This document shows, one piece after another, positions 1 to 17,629 of a DNA stretch of 22,097 nucleotides. The stretch is taken from positions 1 to 22,097 of IMG/VR virus record IMGVR_UViG_3300030380_002846; one strand, written 5' to 3'. The notes below the pieces were generated by a model. The model was not told where the DNA came from and ran no database searches. It saw nothing but the letters and a program-made list of their open reading frames with translations. Each line of letters begins with the position of its first letter. Positions within the stretch are counted from its first letter, which is position 1. A program made the position numbers and the translations under genes. Source of the stretch: a virus.

Positions 1-308
1 CCTACGGAATCCCCGAAAGCCTCAAGCTCACTCCTTACTGTTTTGGTAAATTCACCAAACACAACAGAGGATTTGGCTTGCATCTCTTCAACGCCAGAGG
101 CGAATTTCACCAGTGCCAAACCAGCCCTAGCTGTTTGCATAACGATAGCGGCGGCGAAAACAGCTTTCGCGGCTGTAGCTATCTTTCCAAAACTACTGCT
201 GGCGGATTTTTGAGTTGAATCTACCCTTCGGTCAAACTGTTCCAGCTTCCGATTTACATCTTTAAGGTCAGCTTCAATCCTGACGAGTAGTGTATCAACA
301 GTTGCCAT
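1..308 (-). CDS. Tail tape measure protein, N-terminal part (runs off the window)
   Basis: An open frame of 102 codons starts with ATG at 308-306 and continues past base 1, so only the N-terminus is seen. The product begins MATVDTLLVRIEADLKDVNR and goes on with heptad-like charged sequence (KLEQFDRRVDSTQKSA), a small-residue helical stretch (KIATAAKAVFAAAIVMQTAR) and VEEMQAKSSVVFGEFTKTVR. Such an N-terminus is characteristic of tape measure proteins, which set tail length and pass through the tube during DNA ejection. Its place directly after two tail chaperone frames is the classic position. The start overlaps the stop of the upstream chaperone frame by one base (TGATG), implying translational coupling. 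The identification rests on the N-terminal pattern and the context; the catalytic or membrane regions of the full protein lie outside the window. Confidence 0.85.
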   Translation of the reverse strand, partial: MATVDTLLVRIEADLKDVNRKLEQFDRRVDSTQKSASSSFGKIATAAKAVFAAAIVMQTARAGLALVKFASGVEEMQAKSSVVFGEFTKTVRSELEAFGDSV

Positions 309-541
309 CAGTCGGGATATAACTCCATCAGTTCGTGCAGTTCATTCTTTCTTAGCGGGGGCGGCTTCCCGCCAGAATGAAACTCAGCAAAGCCTTCGAC
401 TGCGGCGTAAAATTCTGGGAAGCTCATATCCCAGAACACTTGTGGGGGAATGCCCATTTTGCCAAGGGCTGTTTGCATCCACTGTTCCCACGGAAGCTCA
501 TCTACACTAGCCGATTGTCCTCCGCCTTTTCCTCGTTTCCC
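308..541 (-). CDS. Tail assembly chaperone, second frame (TAC_6-like), expressed by -1 frameshift
   Basis: This frame has no good start of its own. A TGA at 544-542 closes it on the upstream side, and it is open from there to TGA at 310-308. It contains the residues DELPWEQWMQTALGKMGIPP followed by QVFWDMSFPEFYAAVEGF, resembling the short TAC_6/rcc01693-type chaperones (LPW..., then FW.M...E...A). It would be entered by a -1 slip at 541-535 from the preceding chaperone gene, giving a product of about 182 residues against 117 unshifted. In lambda the analogous gpG and gpGT products prepare the tape measure for tube assembly. A lone ATG at 478 could start a 56-residue product but would cut off the conserved LPWE region, so frameshifting is preferred. 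This is an inference from the sequence, not shown by experiment. Confidence 0.75.
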   Translation of the reverse strand, partial: GKRGKGGGQSASVDELPWEQWMQTALGKMGIPPQVFWDMSFPEFYAAVEGFAEFHSGGKPPPLRKNELHELMELYPD

Positions 542-855
542 TCATCTTCTCCCGCACTCAAGACGGTTGAAAGAATCTCACCAATAGCTTTCATTCCATC
601 AACAAGGCCAGCCCCCCACAAAGCGTTGCCAACCTCTTTTGCATTAATGTCATTTCCACCAGCCCTAATAGCTGGTGTCAGAATGTTCACCATTTGCGTG
701 GTCGTCAAATCACCTTGAGAAAGAGCTTGGGTCACTTTCACGATCCCCAAGCCACACTCGTCCTCAATTCTTTTAACGACATCTAACGTAACCCTAGCTT
801 TGTATTTCTTCTCCCCCAAGATTATCGTCATCTCGCCTCGTTTTGGATTTGCCAT
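502..855 (-). CDS. Tail assembly chaperone (GTA gp10-like, G-type)
   Basis: A 117-residue protein starting MANPKRGEMTIILGEKKYKA, matching the start pattern of the gene-transfer-agent gp10/TAC_11 chaperone family (short, ANP.RGE..., then L..L..IE...G). It probably coats the tape measure protein and brings tube subunits to it. The start ATG at 855 is supported by AAGGAG eight bases upstream. The C-terminus is acidic and low in complexity (AGEDEGNEEKAEDNRLV) and carries the slippery sequence, so it serves partly as a frameshift signal. The first 62 bases overlap the end of the preceding gene, which is more than most overlaps here. Together with the -1 frame downstream it forms the usual G/GT pair between tube and tape measure genes. 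Confidence 0.85.
   Translation of the reverse strand: MANPKRGEMTIILGEKKYKARVTLDVVKRIEDECGLGIVKVTQALSQGDLTTTQMVNILTPAIRAGGNDINAKEVGNALWGAGLVDGMKAIGEILSTVLSAGEDEGNEEKAEDNRLV
535..541 (-). promoter_or_regulatory. Slippery heptamer for programmed -1 ribosomal frameshift
   Basis: On the minus strand the bases read GGGAAAC, parsed G_GGA_AAC in the zero frame of the chaperone gene (codons GAG GGA AAC). This fits the X_XXY_YYZ rule; lambda uses the closely related GGGAAAG in its G-T genes. The -1 frame opens right at this site, just after a TGA at 544-542, and leads into the TAC_6-like frame. A weak 6-bp stem (minus strand CGGAGG at 524-519 with CTTCCG at 496-491, one G-U pair) lies 10 bases downstream. 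It might stimulate slipping, but its 22-base loop makes that uncertain. Confidence 0.8.
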
Positions 856-1072
856 CCGCTTTCTCCTTGGTTTCTACCAAAAGCTCTTCGCCCCTTTGGG
901 CTATATCATGGACGCTTGCGGCTGTGTACGTTTTACTGCCGCACTTAAATTTCCCACCAACCTCTAATTCAGAGGCAGGGGGAATGTTGAAGATGGTGAC
1001 ATCTTCGCCAGCCCTCATGTGACCAGCGAATTTTTTGCCACCAACCTCAACTTCCACTTGTTCCCAAGCCAT
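794..1072 (-). CDS. Small tail-region protein of unknown function
   Basis: A 92-residue product starting MAWEQVEVEVGGKKFAGHMR. A longer frame runs up to base 1114, but ATG at 1072 is chosen because it lies just after the stop of the tail tube gene (1079-1077); the longer version would overlap that gene by 38 bases. The protein has a beta-rich look (short alternating Val/Gly segments, FNIPPASELEVGGKFKCG) and a charged tail (KEKADGKSKTRRDDD). It sits between the tail tube and chaperone genes, so a minor tail role is likely. I do not recognise the family. Its last 62 bases overlap the chaperone gene in another frame. Confidence 0.65.
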   Translation of the reverse strand: MAWEQVEVEVGGKKFAGHMRAGEDVTIFNIPPASELEVGGKFKCGSKTYTAASVHDIAQRGEELLVETKEKADGKSKTRRDDDNLGGEEIQS

Positions 1073-1076
1073 CAGT

Positions 1077-1490
1077 TTACACCGTTGCGAATGTGATCGC
1101 GCCAGAGCTTTCAAAAGTAAAGCTGTAAGTCACCTCACCATTGAACTCGCCGCCATACTCAAGCGTAGTCAACATAAACGCGCCAGTAAATGTACCAAAA
1201 TCAGGAACTAGGAATTGATAATTTGCAAATGAAGATGCATCAAACTTGCCCTTCAAGGTTGTCTCTGATGCACTATCTGTAAATACTCCACTGCCTGTAA
1301 CAGTGATAGAATTTACGCCGCCTTGAGCAAGGATTGTTCTAGCCCTGCCTGAGTCTTTGTTTGTCACATCAACCATCTCATCATTCATGGTCAATGATGT
1401 TGAACGCATACCACCGATTGTTGTGAAAACCTCTGGGCTTGCGCCATCACCGATTTTCATAAGTAGGGCTGAACCCTTTTGTGCCGCCAT
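1077..1490 (-). CDS. Major tail tube protein (TP901-1 / GTA type)
   Basis: A 137-residue protein starting MAAQKGSALLMKIGDGASPE. The stretch GGMRSTSLTMNDEMVDVTNK, then a GGVNSITVTGSGVFTD strand region, then LTTLEYGGEFNGEVTYSFTF near the C-terminus, is the usual layout of the TP901-1 tail tube family: a beta-barrel with the phrase VDVTNKDS, and a late strand ending in FESSG. These subunits stack as hexamers to form the tail tube. Length fits the family (about 135-170). It lies just before the chaperones and tape measure and after the tail terminator, as in most siphoviruses. AAGGAG upstream of ATG at 1490 supports the start. Confidence 0.88.
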   Translation of the reverse strand: MAAQKGSALLMKIGDGASPEVFTTIGGMRSTSLTMNDEMVDVTNKDSGRARTILAQGGVNSITVTGSGVFTDSASETTLKGKFDASSFANYQFLVPDFGTFTGAFMLTTLEYGGEFNGEVTYSFTFESSGAITFATV

Positions 1491-4661: not shown

Positions 4662-5803
4662 TATGCTATCCTTACAATAGTTAAAAAGGTACATCTTGAA
4701 AAACTACCAAAAGATATATTTATCATATTATTTGTCGCCGCCGCGATTTCATAAGTTCCGCTTATTACGTTTCCCCCAGCTATTAATCTTATTTTTGTAC
4801 CGCTTTCCAAATTTTTATATATAGAAGTGCCAGTCAGTGTCATCGTTCCTATTTCATCATCATTGGCATCCATTACTCTGGAAGCACTGCCAAATTCTAT
4901 ATTTTGGTTTGTAATTGCGCTAGAAAAATTATCTGTTGAAAACTGAACCCTTGCCCCAACCTCAATGAGTTGCTCTGTTGCAACAACATCACTTCTAATC
5001 CCACATGAAAATGAAATCAAATACACACCATTTACAGCATCAAATTCGTAAGCATCATTTGATGTGTCAAATTTTGACTTGGTGTCATGGACTACTGTTC
5101 CATTGCCCCCAAAATCCACGACAATTTCCGCTCCATCCGCGTGACCTGTCGTTGATGTTGTTAGCACGACTTGAAAATACTCTTGAACCGCGCCTGTTAC
5201 ATCCCCAGAAAACGTGGTTTGCCCACCAAAAGTAACAGGTCCATTGAATGTGCCGCCTACAGCTTTTGAAACGGTATCAGTTAGGACAAACTTTTGGTAA
5301 AGAACAATCGCAACCACATCATTAGCTGTAAGTGCAGATAGTCCGCCAATCGTATTTGCTGTTGTTGTGTTAAAATCAGAGCCTTGCACCAATGATACGC
5401 CGTTCAAAGAAACCTCAATTTCTTCATTGGCAGAAATGGTTAGGCCAGCAATCTGTGATGTGCCTATGGATGTTTCCCCACCACTTGCAGTAAAATAATG
5501 CCTTGTTCTGATGGCCTCTGAATTTATTTTGGCTAAATTGAAAATGTCAAAAACTGTCACCTCAATAACATCATTGAACGCGAGTGCGCTTAACCCCGTG
5601 ATTGTGTTGTTTTGTGCGCTGTAATCCTCACCAGTCTGAAGCAAAACACCATTCAGATATACATCTATGTATTCTGCATCAGTAAAAGAAAGGCTTTTAC
5701 CGCTGTCATCCAGACCAGAGATAGATGTCTCACCACCTACAGCGGTGAAAAGATACCTGTGTCTAACGCCTGTTTTTTCTGGCGTTGTGCCTATGTATGG
5801 CAT
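4661..5803 (-). CDS. Tail fibre-like protein: two internal repeats and a C1q-like end
   Basis: A 380-residue protein beginning MPYIGTTPEKTG. Two copies of a domain of about 70 residues follow, near residues 16-88 and 102-170. Each has F.A.GGETSI, then a strand with V.LNGV.L..G.D(Y/F), then TI.GLSAL..NDV(I/V). This module is common in fibre proteins of marine phages. After a short linker (GGTFNGPVTFGGQTTFSGDV) comes a C-terminal domain of about 160 residues with FDAVNGVYLISFSCGIRS, typical of C1q/TNF-like jelly rolls that trimerise and bind ligands. It overlaps the next gene by one base. A likely trimeric appendage at the tail tip. Confidence 0.78.
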   Translation of the reverse strand: MPYIGTTPEKTGVRHRYLFTAVGGETSISGLDDSGKSLSFTDAEYIDVYLNGVLLQTGEDYSAQNNTITGLSALAFNDVIEVTVFDIFNLAKINSEAIRTRHYFTASGGETSIGTSQIAGLTISANEEIEVSLNGVSLVQGSDFNTTTANTIGGLSALTANDVVAIVLYQKFVLTDTVSKAVGGTFNGPVTFGGQTTFSGDVTGAVQEYFQVVLTTSTTGHADGAEIVVDFGGNGTVVHDTKSKFDTSNDAYEFDAVNGVYLISFSCGIRSDVVATEQLIEVGARVQFSTDNFSSAITNQNIEFGSASRVMDANDDEIGTMTLTGTSIYKNLESGTKIRLIAGGNVISGTYEIAAATNNMINISFGSFSRCTFLTIVRIA

Positions 5804-11147: not shown

Positions 11148-14132
11148 CTAGCTTGCTATTTTTCCTGAACCTGAAGCGGTAAAATCAAATGTTCTGTTTA
11201 TAATAGTATTGGAACTATCACGGAATGTTATCGTAAATCCAGCGGTTGTTTTGTTTGTTATTTGATAAAACTCACCAGTTAAAAGATTCTGAGCCGCTAT
11301 GCCAAGGCCTTCCAAGGTTCTATATTCATACCCGAAAGTAACTACCTTTGCAGTTGTTCCGCTTGCAATATCTTGTCCTGTCTGGATTTTTATCTCTGCG
11401 TGTGTGGTTGCGCTTGCAAGTGTGACCGCTGGCGAATAATACCTTGTGCCATCTAGTTGGGTTTGACTTGTCAATTTCAATCGTAGTTTGAAAGCTCTCG
11501 CGGTATAATCCCCTGTTGTCACATCGCTGAAATCTGTAAAGGTGGGACTTGATGAGGGATCATCATCGGTTGTTGCTATTTGCATCACAACATTAGCCCC
11601 GCCAATAGCTGATCTCGTTTGTGCGTTGCCTGTGCCAGCGAAAGGCCCGTAATCCGCTCTAGTATAAGTTATATCAGTTCCAACAAGCCTGAATGTTTGT
11701 TTTGAGCCTAAATCAGTGTGGTTTGTGAACTCATATGTGCCAGATTCCACCACGTTTTGATTTCCGCCATCAAATAACCCAGTAGCATCATCAAAATTAC
11801 CTGATACAGAATCAAAGTTGTTACTCGATTGAAGCCGTAAACTTGGTGTCCCACTGTCGCTGAAAACATAAACATTTGTTTTTGTGCCAGCAAACCCTGT
11901 TGCCGCTTGACTCTCTGTGATTGTTCCTATCGTAGCAAAACCACTTGTGGAAGGGTTATCTTGAATAATCCCCTTTGCCTTTGCCGCAAGGTTTGACCTA
12001 TTCCCATACTTATCTACCGCCACACAGAAATACGTCCCTGTCAAACCCGCCACCGTGATTGTATTTGCTGGCCTAGCGACCTTCTCTGCGAGAATGATGG
12101 CGTTGGCAAAATCCTCGCCAGTGACTACATTTTGATGTCTGATTTCATAATGGCTCAAATCTTCATCAGTGAGAGGCGTCCAAGTTAGAACAGCGTTTGC
12201 ACCTTGATAATTCAAACTCAAATCAGATACGTCGCTTGGTAGGCTTGCAACACCCTTTCCAACAATTGTAATTGTCTGCACCACCCTATCAGATACAGTG
12301 CCAACATTGGAACGTGATCTTGCCCTAACTGTGTAAGTATCACCTGTTTTTACATCAAGGTATTCAAAAACGGTGTTTGAACTCCTACCCAAAGAAATTC
12401 TCGGCTGATCTGTAACAGCAACCCCATCTCTCGCTGTGATTTGAACATCCACCTCAAATGTTGTTGAGTATGAATCTCTTGCAGTCAAAGAAACTTCAAT
12501 GACACTTGTTGCTTTTTGGTTAATGACTTGAACCGTTTGCGCGAGAACCATCGTTGGGGGGAGTATGGCAAATGGATCTGGTAATTCAGTATCATCTTCA
12601 ATAAAGTCATCTTCCTCTGCGTTCCAATCAAAAACCGCGCTATTTGTTTCCCGCAACAAAAGATCAATAGCTAATGTCTCAGTGCTTACTGGCGCAAGAG
12701 TCCAAGAAGCAACTTCAAATACTTTTTGATTAAAACCAAATCGCGGGAATGTGACATAAACCCAATCACCCGCCTTGAGGTTGAAAGCCTTTAAACTAGC
12801 CCTTGTCGATATGGTTATTGCTTGGCGGCTTCTAAAAAGCGTTGCCTTAGCTATTCTCTGTGCGCGAGAATGACTTGTTTGCATATTCTGTGGGAAATCT
12901 AAAACTCTCTCCACATTGTTATCTTCAGCAAGGAATGTCGCTGACGTTACTTTTTTGAAATCTGTTGGAACGTATTTATCACCTGATGGGTTCACAAAAA
13001 CGCCACTGACGGTATTGTATTGATCTGCTATTGATTGCTTGGTTTTTACATCCACTGGTCCACGCAAATCATCTTCCGTAAGTGTCATAACAGGTGTTCT
13101 TGCTGATCCAACCGTCAAAGAAAACTTGCCATTTTGATATGTGAGTTGCCCAATACAAGTCTGTAGTAATTGTGTAAGCACATTTTTATGTGATTGATTT
13201 ACTTTAAAGGCTCCATTGACTGTGTAGCGTTTTTCCGTACCACCATTTGAAAGCGGCACATCTTCATTACATATCGCTCTAGCATCAATAAACGATTGCA
13301 GATCAATCTCTGAATTAGATAGACCCATACCGTACACTGTATTTGTAAGGTAATCATAAATTACATCAGCGGATGTATTTCTAAAGGCTTTGTTTGCCCC
13401 TAGATCATCAACTCTTTTTATTAGCGCACCTTGGATTGTGGCGGAAACTCTTGGCAAGCCATTTGGATACGCCCTATCATCAAACGTAAACCTGTAACCT
13501 ACCAGCGCGACCCCTCTAAATCTGTGGTCTTTGGTAAAACCTTTGAATTGATCTTTAATGAAACTAAAGGCATCTTGCCCATTTGTTCCCTTACGTTCAT
13601 AAATACGAACTAATTTATCATTCTTGGCAACGCCACGCTCTTCATCCGCTTTATCTTGTATGTAAATTTTTGGGGCTGTTACTTTGTTGCTTTTGACCGT
13701 TACATTTTTATCATCCAGCCTGTGGTTAGTGTACCTGTTAATTTCGTGACCAGCGTATGCAACAATCATATAAAGAAACTTATTTTTCTTGCCTTCTGTG
13801 GCAATAAAGCTGATAACCCCGCCTACACGAACCTCTCCATAAATAACTTGTCGAGGTTGGGCTGGCTGTTTGATAGTTTGCGTGCGGCCTTGCAACTCAC
13901 CAACAAAAGCGTTGGTATCAAAGTTTGGCATATCAGGCGTTGGGGAAAGAGCTGATGTCAGCGCCATCGTGCCAGCATAGATTGCCGCGCTTGCTAGATA
14001 ACCCAAAGTTCCAATTGGGTTTATCCAAGCCATGAGAGCTATAGTTGCTAATGCAACAGGATCTTTAATAATCTTACCGACATTATCAACGGTATCTTCA
14101 ATTATCTTGCCAAGACTACCTATAACAGCCAT
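11148..14132 (-). CDS. Tail tip protein, J-like (host specificity)
   Basis: A 994-residue protein. A hydrophobic stretch covers residues 25-63 (ALATIALMAWINPIGTLGYL). Residues 86-130 contain the J-type phrase PAQPRQVIYGEVRVGGVISF, and residues 205-275 have FRGVALVGYRF....YPNGLP and VIYDYLTNTVYGMGL, typical of gpJ and its relatives. A tail-protein core (about 300-490) follows, with YNTVSGVFVNPSGDKYVPTD and LKAGDWVYVTFPRFGF. Two fibronectin III-like domains sit near residues 525-625 and 631-720 (LSLNYQGANAVLTWTPLTDE, HYEIRH). The last 270 residues are beta-rich and probably variable. It forms the tail tip that binds the host. It is adjacent to the hub gene upstream. Confidence 0.85.
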   Translation of the reverse strand: MAVIGSLGKIIEDTVDNVGKIIKDPVALATIALMAWINPIGTLGYLASAAIYAGTMALTSALSPTPDMPNFDTNAFVGELQGRTQTIKQPAQPRQVIYGEVRVGGVISFIATEGKKNKFLYMIVAYAGHEINRYTNHRLDDKNVTVKSNKVTAPKIYIQDKADEERGVAKNDKLVRIYERKGTNGQDAFSFIKDQFKGFTKDHRFRGVALVGYRFTFDDRAYPNGLPRVSATIQGALIKRVDDLGANKAFRNTSADVIYDYLTNTVYGMGLSNSEIDLQSFIDARAICNEDVPLSNGGTEKRYTVNGAFKVNQSHKNVLTQLLQTCIGQLTYQNGKFSLTVGSARTPVMTLTEDDLRGPVDVKTKQSIADQYNTVSGVFVNPSGDKYVPTDFKKVTSATFLAEDNNVERVLDFPQNMQTSHSRAQRIAKATLFRSRQAITISTRASLKAFNLKAGDWVYVTFPRFGFNQKVFEVASWTLAPVSTETLAIDLLLRETNSAVFDWNAEEDDFIEDDTELPDPFAILPPTMVLAQTVQVINQKATSVIEVSLTARDSYSTTFEVDVQITARDGVAVTDQPRISLGRSSNTVFEYLDVKTGDTYTVRARSRSNVGTVSDRVVQTITIVGKGVASLPSDVSDLSLNYQGANAVLTWTPLTDEDLSHYEIRHQNVVTGEDFANAIILAEKVARPANTITVAGLTGTYFCVAVDKYGNRSNLAAKAKGIIQDNPSTSGFATIGTITESQAATGFAGTKTNVYVFSDSGTPSLRLQSSNNFDSVSGNFDDATGLFDGGNQNVVESGTYEFTNHTDLGSKQTFRLVGTDITYTRADYGPFAGTGNAQTRSAIGGANVVMQIATTDDDPSSSPTFTDFSDVTTGDYTARAFKLRLKLTSQTQLDGTRYYSPAVTLASATTHAEIKIQTGQDIASGTTAKVVTFGYEYRTLEGLGIAAQNLLTGEFYQITNKTTAGFTITFRDSSNTIINRTFDFTASGSGKIAS

Positions 14133-14687
14133 TTACCGACCCCACGTTATAGTTTTGTCTTGAAGGCCATCTATAAAAGAAAATCCAACATCACCAGCGA
14201 ACAATGCTTTCTGTTCGTTGTTTGTGTAACGACTTACTTTATTACGGTTCATTCCAATCAAAATGTTTTCGCTCATAATGGAGATGTTGGCGTAATTGCC
14301 ATCATCTGAGATAGTCATTGTATCCATTAAGCCTTTGAAAAGGATATATGTTGCAATAACACTCTGGCTGGAATCTAATGCGCCTACAAATAATGTAAGA
14401 TTTCTGCCTTGGTAGGCATCAGTTAGGGCGGTAGCTATTAAAGAGCTATCAATACCATTGATGGTAAGATTGACACCGTTTGCCTCAAGCTCTGCTGTCT
14501 CTGTGATGGGAGCAAACGCAACAATATCACCCGCCCCAATGTAGGTTTCTGATTCAATGGTTTTGTCGCCAATTCCAGACCAAAACCTTGCTGTGCCGCC
14601 AGCGAACTCTGCTTTCATAGCAAAGAATATTCTGACAGTATCACCAGTGAGGGCTGTATTGAGGTTGCTATCTATCCCTCTAGCCAT
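14133..14687 (-). CDS. Tail hub / distal tail protein (DUF2163-like)
   Basis: A 184-residue protein starting MARGIDSNLNTALTGDTVRI and then FFAMKAEFAGGTARFWSGIG. The forms LN.AL......F.A....GG..R.W.G.G, YIGAGDIVAFAPITETAELE, then DAYQGRNLTLFVGALDSSQS and YILFKGLMD, occur in small hub proteins that precede the J protein in siphoviruses, including GTA-like DUF2163 proteins. It probably joins the tape measure end to the tail tip. The stop TAA abuts the J start directly. This order (hub, then J) is conserved even though the module is misplaced relative to the connector genes. Confidence 0.72.
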   Translation of the reverse strand: MARGIDSNLNTALTGDTVRIFFAMKAEFAGGTARFWSGIGDKTIESETYIGAGDIVAFAPITETAELEANGVNLTINGIDSSLIATALTDAYQGRNLTLFVGALDSSQSVIATYILFKGLMDTMTISDDGNYANISIMSENILIGMNRNKVSRYTNNEQKALFAGDVGFSFIDGLQDKTITWGR

Positions 14688-14701
14688 GAAGCCCCCTTAT
14701 G

Positions 14702-15004
14702 TTACTTTAGGGATTTTTCAGGTGCTTTGCCGCCTTCCCATGCCTCATTGACATTGGGAGTGCTTGGGTCATCGCCCTTTAGCGTGCCATCAGCGTTTCT
14801 AGCCCTTGTGGGGGCGTTTACCTTTGTTTCGGTAGGTTTTACCACCTTTGTTTCTTCAGCAAGCCCTGCGGCTATAAATGCGGCGTTTCTTGCTTTTTCC
14901 CAATCTTCATTACTTGAAAGCTCCTCGCCCTCTGTATAGGTGCGAGTGACAGACCCCATGCTATTGGCAACACCTATGCCATTCTTGATCATTACTGTAG
15001 CCAT
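14702..15004 (-). CDS. Small structural-region protein (unknown)
   Basis: A 100-residue protein starting MATVMIKNGIGVANSMGSVT. The N-terminal half is compact; the C-terminal part is disordered and charged and ends RNADGTLKGDDPSTPNVNEA before WEGGKAPEKSLK. The DDPSTP..NEAW tail appears in small proteins next to capsid genes in several phages. It could be a connector or head accessory factor. GGAGGG lies upstream of ATG at 15004. No family can be named firmly. Confidence 0.65.
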   Translation of the reverse strand: MATVMIKNGIGVANSMGSVTRTYTEGEELSSNEDWEKARNAAFIAAGLAEETKVVKPTETKVNAPTRARNADGTLKGDDPSTPNVNEAWEGGKAPEKSLK

Positions 15005-15024
15005 CTAGCCCTCCGATTGGTAGA

Positions 15025-15046
15025 GGGGCAGAGCGAACCCTGCCCC
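15025..15046 (-). other. RNA hairpin after the decoration gene
   Basis: On the minus strand GGGGCAGGG and CTCTGCCCC pair around a TTCG loop: nine base pairs, one of them G-U. The hairpin lies in the 48-base gap between the decoration gene and the next gene. There is no U-run after it, so it is not a standard terminator. It may stabilise the capsid and decoration messages or act as a weak attenuator that lowers expression of genes further down. The structure is seen in the sequence; the function is inferred. Confidence 0.5.
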
Positions 15047-15052
15047 CACATT

Positions 15053-15517
15053 TTATGCGTTATGCGCGGTAAATGCGTTATCGCCAGTATGACGAGCATG
15101 ACCACGGACAACCATCGCACCGATTGGTGTTCCGTTTGAGTGCGTGCCTGTCTTAGCAATAACCACACGGATGTACCTTTTACCACCGACATAACCAACA
15201 CGGAAGATGCCGCCAGCGGTATCTGGGTCACCGCCTGTTGTGCCATCTAACTTCAGGAAAATTCCACCTGAACTAATTGTGCCGTCTACGATGCCAGCTT
15301 GTGCAACATCAGTGTATGTTGAATCATCATCAGATTCTTCCAATGATATTTCAAAATGAACACTTGATGACAGCGTATCACCTTCTGCGCCGACATCAAC
15401 CAGAACCGTAGCTGACTCATAGCCTTGGAGATCAACTCCTGTGCCATTTGCCGCCGCTGAACGGACTGCCGCCGCCAAGGAGACTGCTGGGCTAATTGAA
15501 TTTGAAAGGTCTTTCAT
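15053..15517 (-). CDS. Probable capsid decoration protein
   Basis: A 154-residue protein starting MKDLSNSISPAVSLAAAVRS. It contains GTGVDLQGYESATVLVDVGA followed by SSVHFEISLEESDDDSTYTD and then VGGKRYIRVVIAKTGTHSNG and PIGAMVVRGHARH. The set vDLqG..SAtvlV.vG, then LEESDD...tdV, is widespread in small proteins next to capsid genes in siphoviruses and is usually taken to be a head decoration or stabilising protein. The gene lies 12 bases after the major capsid gene, the usual place. TAAGGGAG is upstream of ATG at 15517. It is not homologous by eye to lambda gpD. Confidence 0.68.
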   Translation of the reverse strand: MKDLSNSISPAVSLAAAVRSAAANGTGVDLQGYESATVLVDVGAEGDTLSSSVHFEISLEESDDDSTYTDVAQAGIVDGTISSGGIFLKLDGTTGGDPDTAGGIFRVGYVGGKRYIRVVIAKTGTHSNGTPIGAMVVRGHARHTGDNAFTAHNA

Positions 15518-15529
15518 AGCAACTCTCCC

Positions 15530-16747
15530 TTATGTTGAGATTTTCTGCTTGCGTAGAGCTTCAGCCAAGATAACCTGACCGCCTACTCTTGCGCGAGCAT
15601 AATAACGAACACTGCCTGTAGATGCCTGTGTGAACGGATCACGCAAGATTGACAGGTTGACTCTATCAACAACCATGTAGCCTCTTGAGAAATCACCGAA
15701 CATTACAGGAAAAGCATTTGATGCCACATCTGGCATATCAGGCATTTCAATGTATGGATAACCAAGAATGGTATTCGGCACACCAGCGGTGAGCATCATG
15801 CCAGCTTGGAACACATACTGACCCGCACTGTCCTTGAGTTTGCGGATAGCCGCCAAGGTTGTACGGTTGAAGATGAATGATGCGCCTGTGCCATATGGTG
15901 TTTTCACCGCATGGACGAGGTCAATCAAACCATCAGCAAGCAATGTGTTTGCATTACCAGATACAGTTTCCCCAACACTTGAGTTGGTCAACAAACCTTC
16001 AGGCTGACCAACAGAGCTACCATTGATGAAAGCGTTGCCCTCATTCTTAGCAAGCTGTGTTGCGAACTCTTCTTGCATCTCTGCTTCAAGGTTAAAAACA
16101 GAATCCTCAAGCATCTGATTTGAAATATCAACCAGAGCGTAATGCTCATGGGTTGGGATTTCTTCCAACTGAGTTGTGTAACCAGTTGTTTCAGATTTTG
16201 TGCCTGTCTCAGCTACCCATGATGCACTGAATGTTGCAGTGCGGCTTGGCATCTGAATTGACTTCTGGCTTGTTGCCCGAACCCTTGCAATGGTACGCAA
16301 TGGTGAGATTTCTGTGATAGTCTTAATCAACTCATTCACATACTCTGGCGGAGCCAAGAACCCTGCGCCTGTGTCATTGTTCACAGTCAGAGCTTTTACC
16401 TCATCAGGCTCTAAGTCCTTTTCACCTTTACGCAACCACTTGTCAAAAGCCTTTACAGAAAAATCAACTTGCTCTGTTGATACGCCAGCTTCAGGACGCT
16501 TCAACATTGCTTCCATGTTGTCGATTTTTTCTCCAAACTGCTTTTGCTCCTCTTGAGCCAAAGTCAGCTTTTGGTTGATGTCCTCTAGGCGGTCAAGATC
16601 AGCCTCAATATTTTTCAGCTTTTCTTCAACCAGCGGGTCGGACGAACCCTTCTTTTCGATTTCCGCAAGACGTTGATCATTGGTAGCCTTGAACTCCTCA
16701 AAGGCTGTAGCCATTGAATCGACTGCGGTTTTGACATCATCACTCAT
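15530..16747 (-). CDS. Major capsid protein (HK97 fold)
   Basis: A 405-residue protein. Residues 1-85 form a coiled-coil scaffold (delta domain) with heptads such as LVEEKLKNIEADLDRLEDIN. The mature shell starts around residue 118, at ALTVNNDTGAGFLAPPEYVN. Hallmarks of the family follow: ISPLRTIARVRATSQKSIQM, then WVAETGTKSETTGYT, LVDISNQMLEDSVFNLEAEM, NGSSVGQPEGLL and near the end YYARARVGGQVILAEALRKQ. The delta domain is normally cleaved by the prohead protease encoded just upstream. Length is normal. The call is firm. Confidence 0.95.
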   Translation of the reverse strand: MSDDVKTAVDSMATAFEEFKATNDQRLAEIEKKGSSDPLVEEKLKNIEADLDRLEDINQKLTLAQEEQKQFGEKIDNMEAMLKRPEAGVSTEQVDFSVKAFDKWLRKGEKDLEPDEVKALTVNNDTGAGFLAPPEYVNELIKTITEISPLRTIARVRATSQKSIQMPSRTATFSASWVAETGTKSETTGYTTQLEEIPTHEHYALVDISNQMLEDSVFNLEAEMQEEFATQLAKNEGNAFINGSSVGQPEGLLTNSSVGETVSGNANTLLADGLIDLVHAVKTPYGTGASFIFNRTTLAAIRKLKDSAGQYVFQAGMMLTAGVPNTILGYPYIEMPDMPDVASNAFPVMFGDFSRGYMVVDRVNLSILRDPFTQASTGSVRYYARARVGGQVILAEALRKQKIST

Positions 16748-16759
16748 GTCATGCCCCTT

Positions 16760-17629
16760 TTACGATTTCAGGATGTTGGTTAAATTGGCAATGGAATCCA
16801 TTACCCCTTTTTGCTCATCGCCAACCTCTCGCTGGTCTAAAGCGTTTGAAACGGCATTTGCCGCCACTTTTGATTCTGAACGAGATAACCCGCCTTCGTC
16901 CCGAAGGAAAGCCTCCCAATCCCGAACCGACCTATCCTCTGCCTTGACTGCACTGATGCGTGCTTTCGGGTTCATAGGAAAGGTAACTGCACTGATTTCC
17001 ATAAGGTCTACCTCTTTGAGCATACGCTTCTTGCCACGCTCATCGTAGCTGTAACCTTTGGCATCAACCCTGTAACCCACTGACAGTCCATCTATCGCGC
17101 CCATTTTCATAAGCTCATAGACTTCCCGCCCCTTTTGGGTGTTCATTGCAAGTTGGCCTTTAACGTATAAGCCGTTGCCATCTTCTTTTATTTGTGTGTA
17201 AACGCCGATTGGCTCTTTGGTGTCATGCTGGAAAAGCATTTTGATTTTCCGCGCACCCTTTGCTCTTAGTGATTTACGAAACGCCCCATTGACTACAACG
17301 TCATTTCCTAAATCTTTGTTTCCGAATACAGATGCGTAGCCCTCAAACATACCTTTGTTTTTGTCATCTTCATCATCATCGTAGGCTTTTAACTCAAGGT
17401 CAGCCTCGCAATCTATGTATCCAGTTTCAACAAATTTGACCTCATCACATTCATCAAATGCTGGGGCATCATCCATCACAGTCTCCTCTTTACCGTCACG
17501 GTAACTGCTCAGACAGACTGCAACCCGCTGGTCACGCTGTGAGTATTCACTAAGCATAGTGCTATCTTCCATGCACCTCGCCATAAAATCAGTTTCGCTT
17601 TCGCCACTTGTCGGCTTTGGAATCGGCAT
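16760..17629 (-). CDS. Prohead protease (HK97 family, U35 type)
   Basis: A 289-residue protein. The N-terminal 50 residues contain FMARCMEDSTMLSEYSQRDQ and RVAVCLSSYRDG, a short domain often attached to these proteases. The catalytic domain begins at MFEGYASVFGNKDLGNDVVV (about residue 94). The likely active residues are His135 (in MLFQHDTKEPIG) and Ser183 (in AIDGLSVGYRV), and EISAVTFPMNPKARI is the typical closing motif. The C-terminus has RDWEAFLRDEGGLSRSESKV, also standard. It cleaves the capsid delta domain during maturation. It is the first minus-strand gene after the plus-strand cassette, so it needs its own promoter or readthrough. Confidence 0.93.
   Translation of the reverse strand: MPIPKPTSGESETDFMARCMEDSTMLSEYSQRDQRVAVCLSSYRDGKEETVMDDAPAFDECDEVKFVETGYIDCEADLELKAYDDDEDDKNKGMFEGYASVFGNKDLGNDVVVNGAFRKSLRAKGARKIKMLFQHDTKEPIGVYTQIKEDGNGLYVKGQLAMNTQKGREVYELMKMGAIDGLSVGYRVDAKGYSYDERGKKRMLKEVDLMEISAVTFPMNPKARISAVKAEDRSVRDWEAFLRDEGGLSRSESKVAANAVSNALDQREVGDEQKGVMDSIANLTNILKS

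Follow-up and report, generated by a model that had tools for sequence, protein, structure and literature searches.

A probable programmed −1 frameshift joins two tail chaperone frames of a marine phage and may be shared with alphaproteobacterial gene transfer agents

Results

Two chaperone frames overlap between the tail tube and tape-measure genes

The window analysed here is a 22,097 nt stretch of a marine phage, positions 1–22,097 of the IMG/VR record IMGVR_UViG_3300030380_002846. Its tail chaperone locus lies close to one contig end and comprises the following features, listed by window position.

3–308, minus strand: first part of the tape-measure gene, which runs off the contig end; assigned from PHROG tape-measure matches (best 1.6e-4)
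308–310, minus strand: TGA ending the −1 frame, which shares bases with the tape-measure ATG (TGATG)
311–541, minus strand: −1 frame extension (T-like), 77 codons, a Gly/Arg-rich linker (GKRGKGGG) followed by Phage_TAC_6
502–855, minus strand: 0-frame chaperone (G-like), 117 codons, ATG at 855–853 and stop at 504–502
535–541, minus strand: candidate slippery heptamer G_GGA_AAC, its phase read directly
542–544, minus strand: TGA immediately 5′ of the heptamer, closing the −1 frame on that side, read directly
1077–1490, minus strand: major tail tube protein, a homologue of RcGTA Rcc01691 (6tba, E 9e-26)

Both chaperone frames are flanked by the tail tube gene on one side and the tape measure on the other, which is the position expected of a lambda G/GT-type pair. 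Near the end of the first frame, the codons GAG GGA AAC at 543–535 place GGGAAAC in X_XXY_YYZ phase, and a slip at this point would join 107 residues, counted through the AAC codon, to 75 residues of the −1 frame, giving a product of 182. The 0-frame protein belongs to Pfam PF11836 Phage_TAC_11 (GTA-gp10; 5.6e-11, 42.8 bits against a cut-off of 27.8), the match covering residues 6–99 (window 559–840) and positions 1–94 of the 96 in the profile. The −1 frame belongs to Pfam PF09550 Phage_TAC_6 (1.7e-9, 38.4 bits against a cut-off of 23.4, profile 1–57 of 58), with the domain at its residues 16–77 (window 311–496). Its best NCBIfam match is TIGR02216 (rcc01693 family; E 3.9e-7), and at 30.2 bits against a cut-off of 56.1 it is a relative of that family and not a member. 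The first ATG, GTG or TTG of the −1 frame is codon 22, within the TAC_6 domain; because the Pfam match begins at residue 16, a start there would truncate the domain. These readings bear out what an earlier note on this DNA had claimed, namely the 117-codon frame, the phase of GGGAAAC, the limits of the −1 frame and the 182-residue length (all coordinates and lengths being correct), the two family assignments, and a second frame that lacks a good start.

AlphaFold models the 0-frame protein (pLDDT 83) as a small alpha/beta domain that extends to about residue 100, with disorder from residue 102, so that the slip falls in the disordered tail. Foldseek searches of the PDB with this model gave zero significant matches. 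When the Foldseek PDB candidates were re-ranked by VIA, the HK97 tail assembly chaperone 2ob9 came out on top (Z 5.0, next 3.0; 84 residues, rmsd 6.0, 11% identity), a Z that is low in itself, and the matches also include several viral models labelled as tail assembly chaperones. The structure models would agree with a G-like role of the 0-frame protein, weakly on their own. The model of the −1 domain is helical and of low confidence.

The window contains six copies of GGGAAAC, where shuffled sequences would lead one to expect 2.3, and the heptamer alone is therefore weak evidence. Another in-phase copy lies at 4769–4775 (minus strand), near the end of the ORF 5803–4661; we rejected it as a second frameshift site, its −1 frame stopping after 8 codons.

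Two further aspects of gene order were observed. A small ORF of 92 residues without a Pfam match (794–1072, minus strand) lies between the tail tube and chaperone genes and overlaps the chaperone start, and MW202777 likewise carries a small hypothetical gene between these two genes. At 11148–17629 (minus strand), the order is unusual in that a 994-aa ORF and many small ORFs separate the capsid genes from the head-tail connector and tail tube genes; the 994-aa ORF has no Pfam match and may be a tail-tip protein.

The heptamer is conserved at the nucleotide level among viral relatives

Viral relatives were collected by scanning contigs with both window proteins and with a profile of each. The 84 unique viral sequences used below are those in which both frames were found, the window included; they are related, and the counts do not represent independent events. 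The −1 relation between the frames is present in 84/84, and the stop of the −1 frame touches or overlaps the tape-measure ATG in most of them. The tape measure itself is 676–786 aa long in ten contigs related to the window phage.

The earlier note had named, as an outcome that would speak against a frameshift, relatives that lack the heptamer and translate the second frame from its own start. This is not what the relatives show. An in-phase heptamer is kept throughout, as GGGAAAC in 82 of the 84 sequences and as GGGAAAG in 2, with Z as the sole position that changes, and 56 of the 84 −1 frames have no ATG, GTG or TTG before the TAC_6 domain. It is thus the conservation of the site in 84/84, not the heptamer itself, that exceeds chance. 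A scan that used the 0-frame profile only, and is therefore independent of the −1 frame, recovered the in-phase GGGAAAC in 60/60 sequences, the search patterns lying far from the heptamer.

The constraint extends to the codons that make up the site. Across the 84 sequences, the X codon is GAG in 75, GTG in 4 and TCG in 2, with ACG, CAG and GCG making up the rest, so that its third base is always G despite six different amino acids, and the GGA codon is invariant (84/84). We compared codon use in 36 sequences with a median identity of 55% and a minimum of 27%. Both site codons, GGA and AAC, are invariant in this set, whereas other conserved Asn columns use AAC in 3/36 and 3/34 only, and most of the remaining conserved Gly columns draw on all four codons. 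Judged from these alignments, the heptamer is conserved through selection on the nucleotides themselves, which a slippery site would require. The frames, their phase, their families, this nucleotide-level conservation and the missing usable start are direct observations.

The in-phase GGGAAAC also occurs outside the close clade, in the chromosomal locus L103, the Desulfofustis phage OP947159, MW202777 and the Rhizobium phage RHph_Y3_1. A search of genome contigs with the −1 frame profile returned only two loci, both distant. In OP947159 (L153) and MW202777 (L154), two separate tail genes are annotated without a frameshift, though an in-phase GGGAAAC joins them; these annotations are probably incomplete.

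Search for a stimulatory RNA downstream of the heptamer

RNAalifold applied to 33 sequences downstream of the heptamer found zero conserved pairs, and single folds of ten sequences were not better than shuffles (z −0.77 to 1.69). In the window, a hairpin is predicted after a 9-nt spacer, with a stability within that of shuffles (z −0.42). A 5-bp GGCGG/YUGCC stem, paired at 87% of cells, was considered and rejected, as its covariation is not above shuffles and its middle pair fails in 18/33; the Gly-Gly and Leu-Pro codons at this place offer the simplest account of the stem. The missing conserved structure neither supports nor excludes weak frameshifting.

Candidate slippery sites occur in many GTA-like clusters but not in the sampled RcGTA clade

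For comparison with gene transfer agents (GTAs), we sampled loci from chromosomes, plasmids and phages in which TAC_6 lies next to a tail tube gene, applying the label "GTA-like" on the basis of gene order and the tail tube protein. Statements on the RcGTA clade rest on close relatives (best tail-tube match to 6tba 92%), on Paracoccus ferrooxidans and on PMC9765227, where g10.1 is listed as a separate gene. All 32 sampled clusters of this clade provide TAC_6 with a start codon, which in most cases overlaps the first stop, and an in-phase heptamer was found in none of the 32. The picture differs outside the clade: many other alphaproteobacterial GTA-like clusters, together with several annotated phages, have a −1 overlap with a slippery heptamer. 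The earlier note had held that the two families are separate genes in the Rhodobacter GTA, a statement that stands for the RcGTA clade and fails for alphaproteobacterial GTA-like clusters at large. Among the classifiable non-RcGTA loci, 14 have the heptamer and no start, 3 have both, 1 has neither, and 10 have a start and no heptamer. The heptamer and the missing start therefore co-occur (Fisher p 2.7e-4, with no correction for kinship or sample overlap).

The heptamers of GTA-like clusters are mostly CCCTTTC (also CCCTTTT and CCCTTTG), AAACCCT and GGGAAAG, with C_CCU_UUC, A_AAC_CCU and G_GGA_AAG as candidate shift sites. The CCCTTTC-type heptamers are in phase in the chromosomal GTA-like clusters L055, L060, L062, L063, L070, L073, L080, L087–L091, L096, L097, L100, L104, L105 and L114. 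In these clusters the frames overlap in the −1 relation, the heptamer lies at the start of TAC_6, and a usable start is missing. From this arrangement, these clusters likely make a gp10-gp10.1 frameshift product. CCCTTTC overlaps the conserved F-P-W of the TAC_6 domain, and its conservation is therefore partly protein-driven; the choice of TTT and of the preceding CCC is not. L098, L116, L152 (a Shinella plasmid) and L157 (phage MW462191) carry a third candidate type of slippery site, AAACCCT, which is in phase and lies towards the end of the TAC_11-like frame; TAC_6 is in the −1 frame. In L092, L112, L208 and L212, an in-phase GGGAAAG joins TAC_11 and TAC_6, lying directly ahead of the stop codon in L092.

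The tape measures of GTA-like clusters are about 160–230 aa long with or without a heptamer, compared with 676–786 aa in the ten phage relatives, so that loss of the site is not simply tied to tail length.

Discussion

Proposed mechanism and alternative explanations

We consider the locus to be a lambda G/GT-type programmed −1 ribosomal frameshift, with a probability of about 0.94 on the strength of the sequence comparisons. Most ribosomes would read 855–502 and produce the 117-residue chaperone, whereas a minority would slip one base back on G_GGA_AAC (541–535) and continue through TAC_6 to 308, producing the 182-residue fusion; we infer the slippage, its frequency and the role of each form. 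By analogy with lambda gpG/gpGT, coating of the tape-measure protein may fall to the short form, and the long form may use its TAC_6 tail to bring in the tail tube protein. Highly shift-prone heptamers in E. coli are described as those with AAG at their end (PMC5009743), and the AAC-ending heptamer may therefore shift inefficiently.

The two frames could instead yield separate proteins, with TAC_6 translated through termination-coupled re-initiation once the first gene has been read, from a start in the overlap or from codon 22. Such an arrangement exists in homologues, TAC_6 having its own start and no heptamer throughout the sampled RcGTA clade, and codon 22 is ATG in the window and in many relatives. 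However, the 56 sequences without any start codon ahead of the TAC_6 domain speak against it, and it leaves both the synonymous conservation of GGGAAAC and the G-ending X codon unexplained. As for an internal start at M22, we rejected it, since the residue is not conserved (I, F or L in relatives such as L035, L043, L047 and L051) and a start there cuts the TAC_6 domain. Taken together, we regard separate translation as improbable. Still less credible is a heptamer present by chance, in which the −1 frame would be a leftover or untranslated and the 117-residue protein the only product: the five further GGGAAAC copies in the window speak for such a reading, but the site is conserved without exception, and the domain in the −1 frame passes the Pfam cut-off and has 22 invariant columns across 28 aligned sequences. 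The metagenomic origin of the contig also raises the question of a sequencing or assembly error that split one gene into two frames, which is refuted, to the point of being negligible, by the −1 relation shared among 84 unique sequences from many data sets and separately deposited phage records.

Evolutionary reading and significance

With the same kind of −1 overlap in many GTA-like clusters and several annotated phages, the TAC_11/TAC_6 fusion more probably represents a common condition than a peculiarity of the window phage. On balance, we lean slightly towards a −1 frameshift inherited by these phages and the alphaproteobacterial GTAs from a shared ancestor; many GTA-like clusters outside the RcGTA clade would then still produce a gp10-gp10.1 fusion from a changed slippery site, and the RcGTA clade, to which the model GTA belongs, would have lost it in favour of two separate proteins. 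Frameshifted G/GT chaperones are already well known, and the window case joins them. Our search of open-access papers, with most subscription journals outside its scope, found none in which TAC_11/TAC_6, rcc01693 or the tail genes of GTAs are described as paired by a frameshift, and the new part is possibly the retention and loss of the slippery site across GTAs. Two tail families that are widely annotated and separately listed would form a G/GT pair, for which the nucleotide-level evidence is strong, and in many phages, e.g., OP947159 and MW202777, the TAC_6 half has probably been annotated wrongly or with an incorrect start. The GTAs offer a test case, in which a clade that has seemingly swapped the frameshift for a separate gene stands beside relatives that keep the frameshift, allowing the purpose of the fusion to be asked.

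Comparison with known systems

As in lambda, the overlapping frames of the window lie between the tail tube and tape-measure genes, and the long form would extend the short one. The lambda slippery site is GGGAAAG, whereas that of the window is GGGAAAC, and the two halves in the window are Pfam TAC_11 and TAC_6. In lambda, the −1 shift is reported to occur at a low level near the end of the first gene (PMC5009743), and long-tailed dsDNA phages share the gpG/gpGT frameshift as a conserved trait (Xu, Hendrix and Duda 2004, reviewed in PMC5009743). The same site as in the window phage, G_GGA_AAC, has been reported as the g-t shift site of HCTV-1, a virus of halophilic archaea and thus of a different domain of life (PMC5009743). 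Among solved structures, the HK97 chaperone (2ob9) matches the 0-frame model best, yet this match is too weak alone to establish kinship. A parallel in gene content is RcGTA g10/g10.1 (rcc01693 family, TIGR02216), where related families follow each other in the same order, flanked by the tail tube and tape-measure genes. The RcGTA clade differs from the window phage and its relatives in that TAC_6 has its own start without a heptamer and the tape measure is about 220 aa long instead of 676–786 aa. The T4-like tail assembly chaperones are a precedent for two forms made without a frameshift (Vladimirov 2022, as cited in PMC10885494), and the RcGTA clade may likewise make its two chaperone forms without one.
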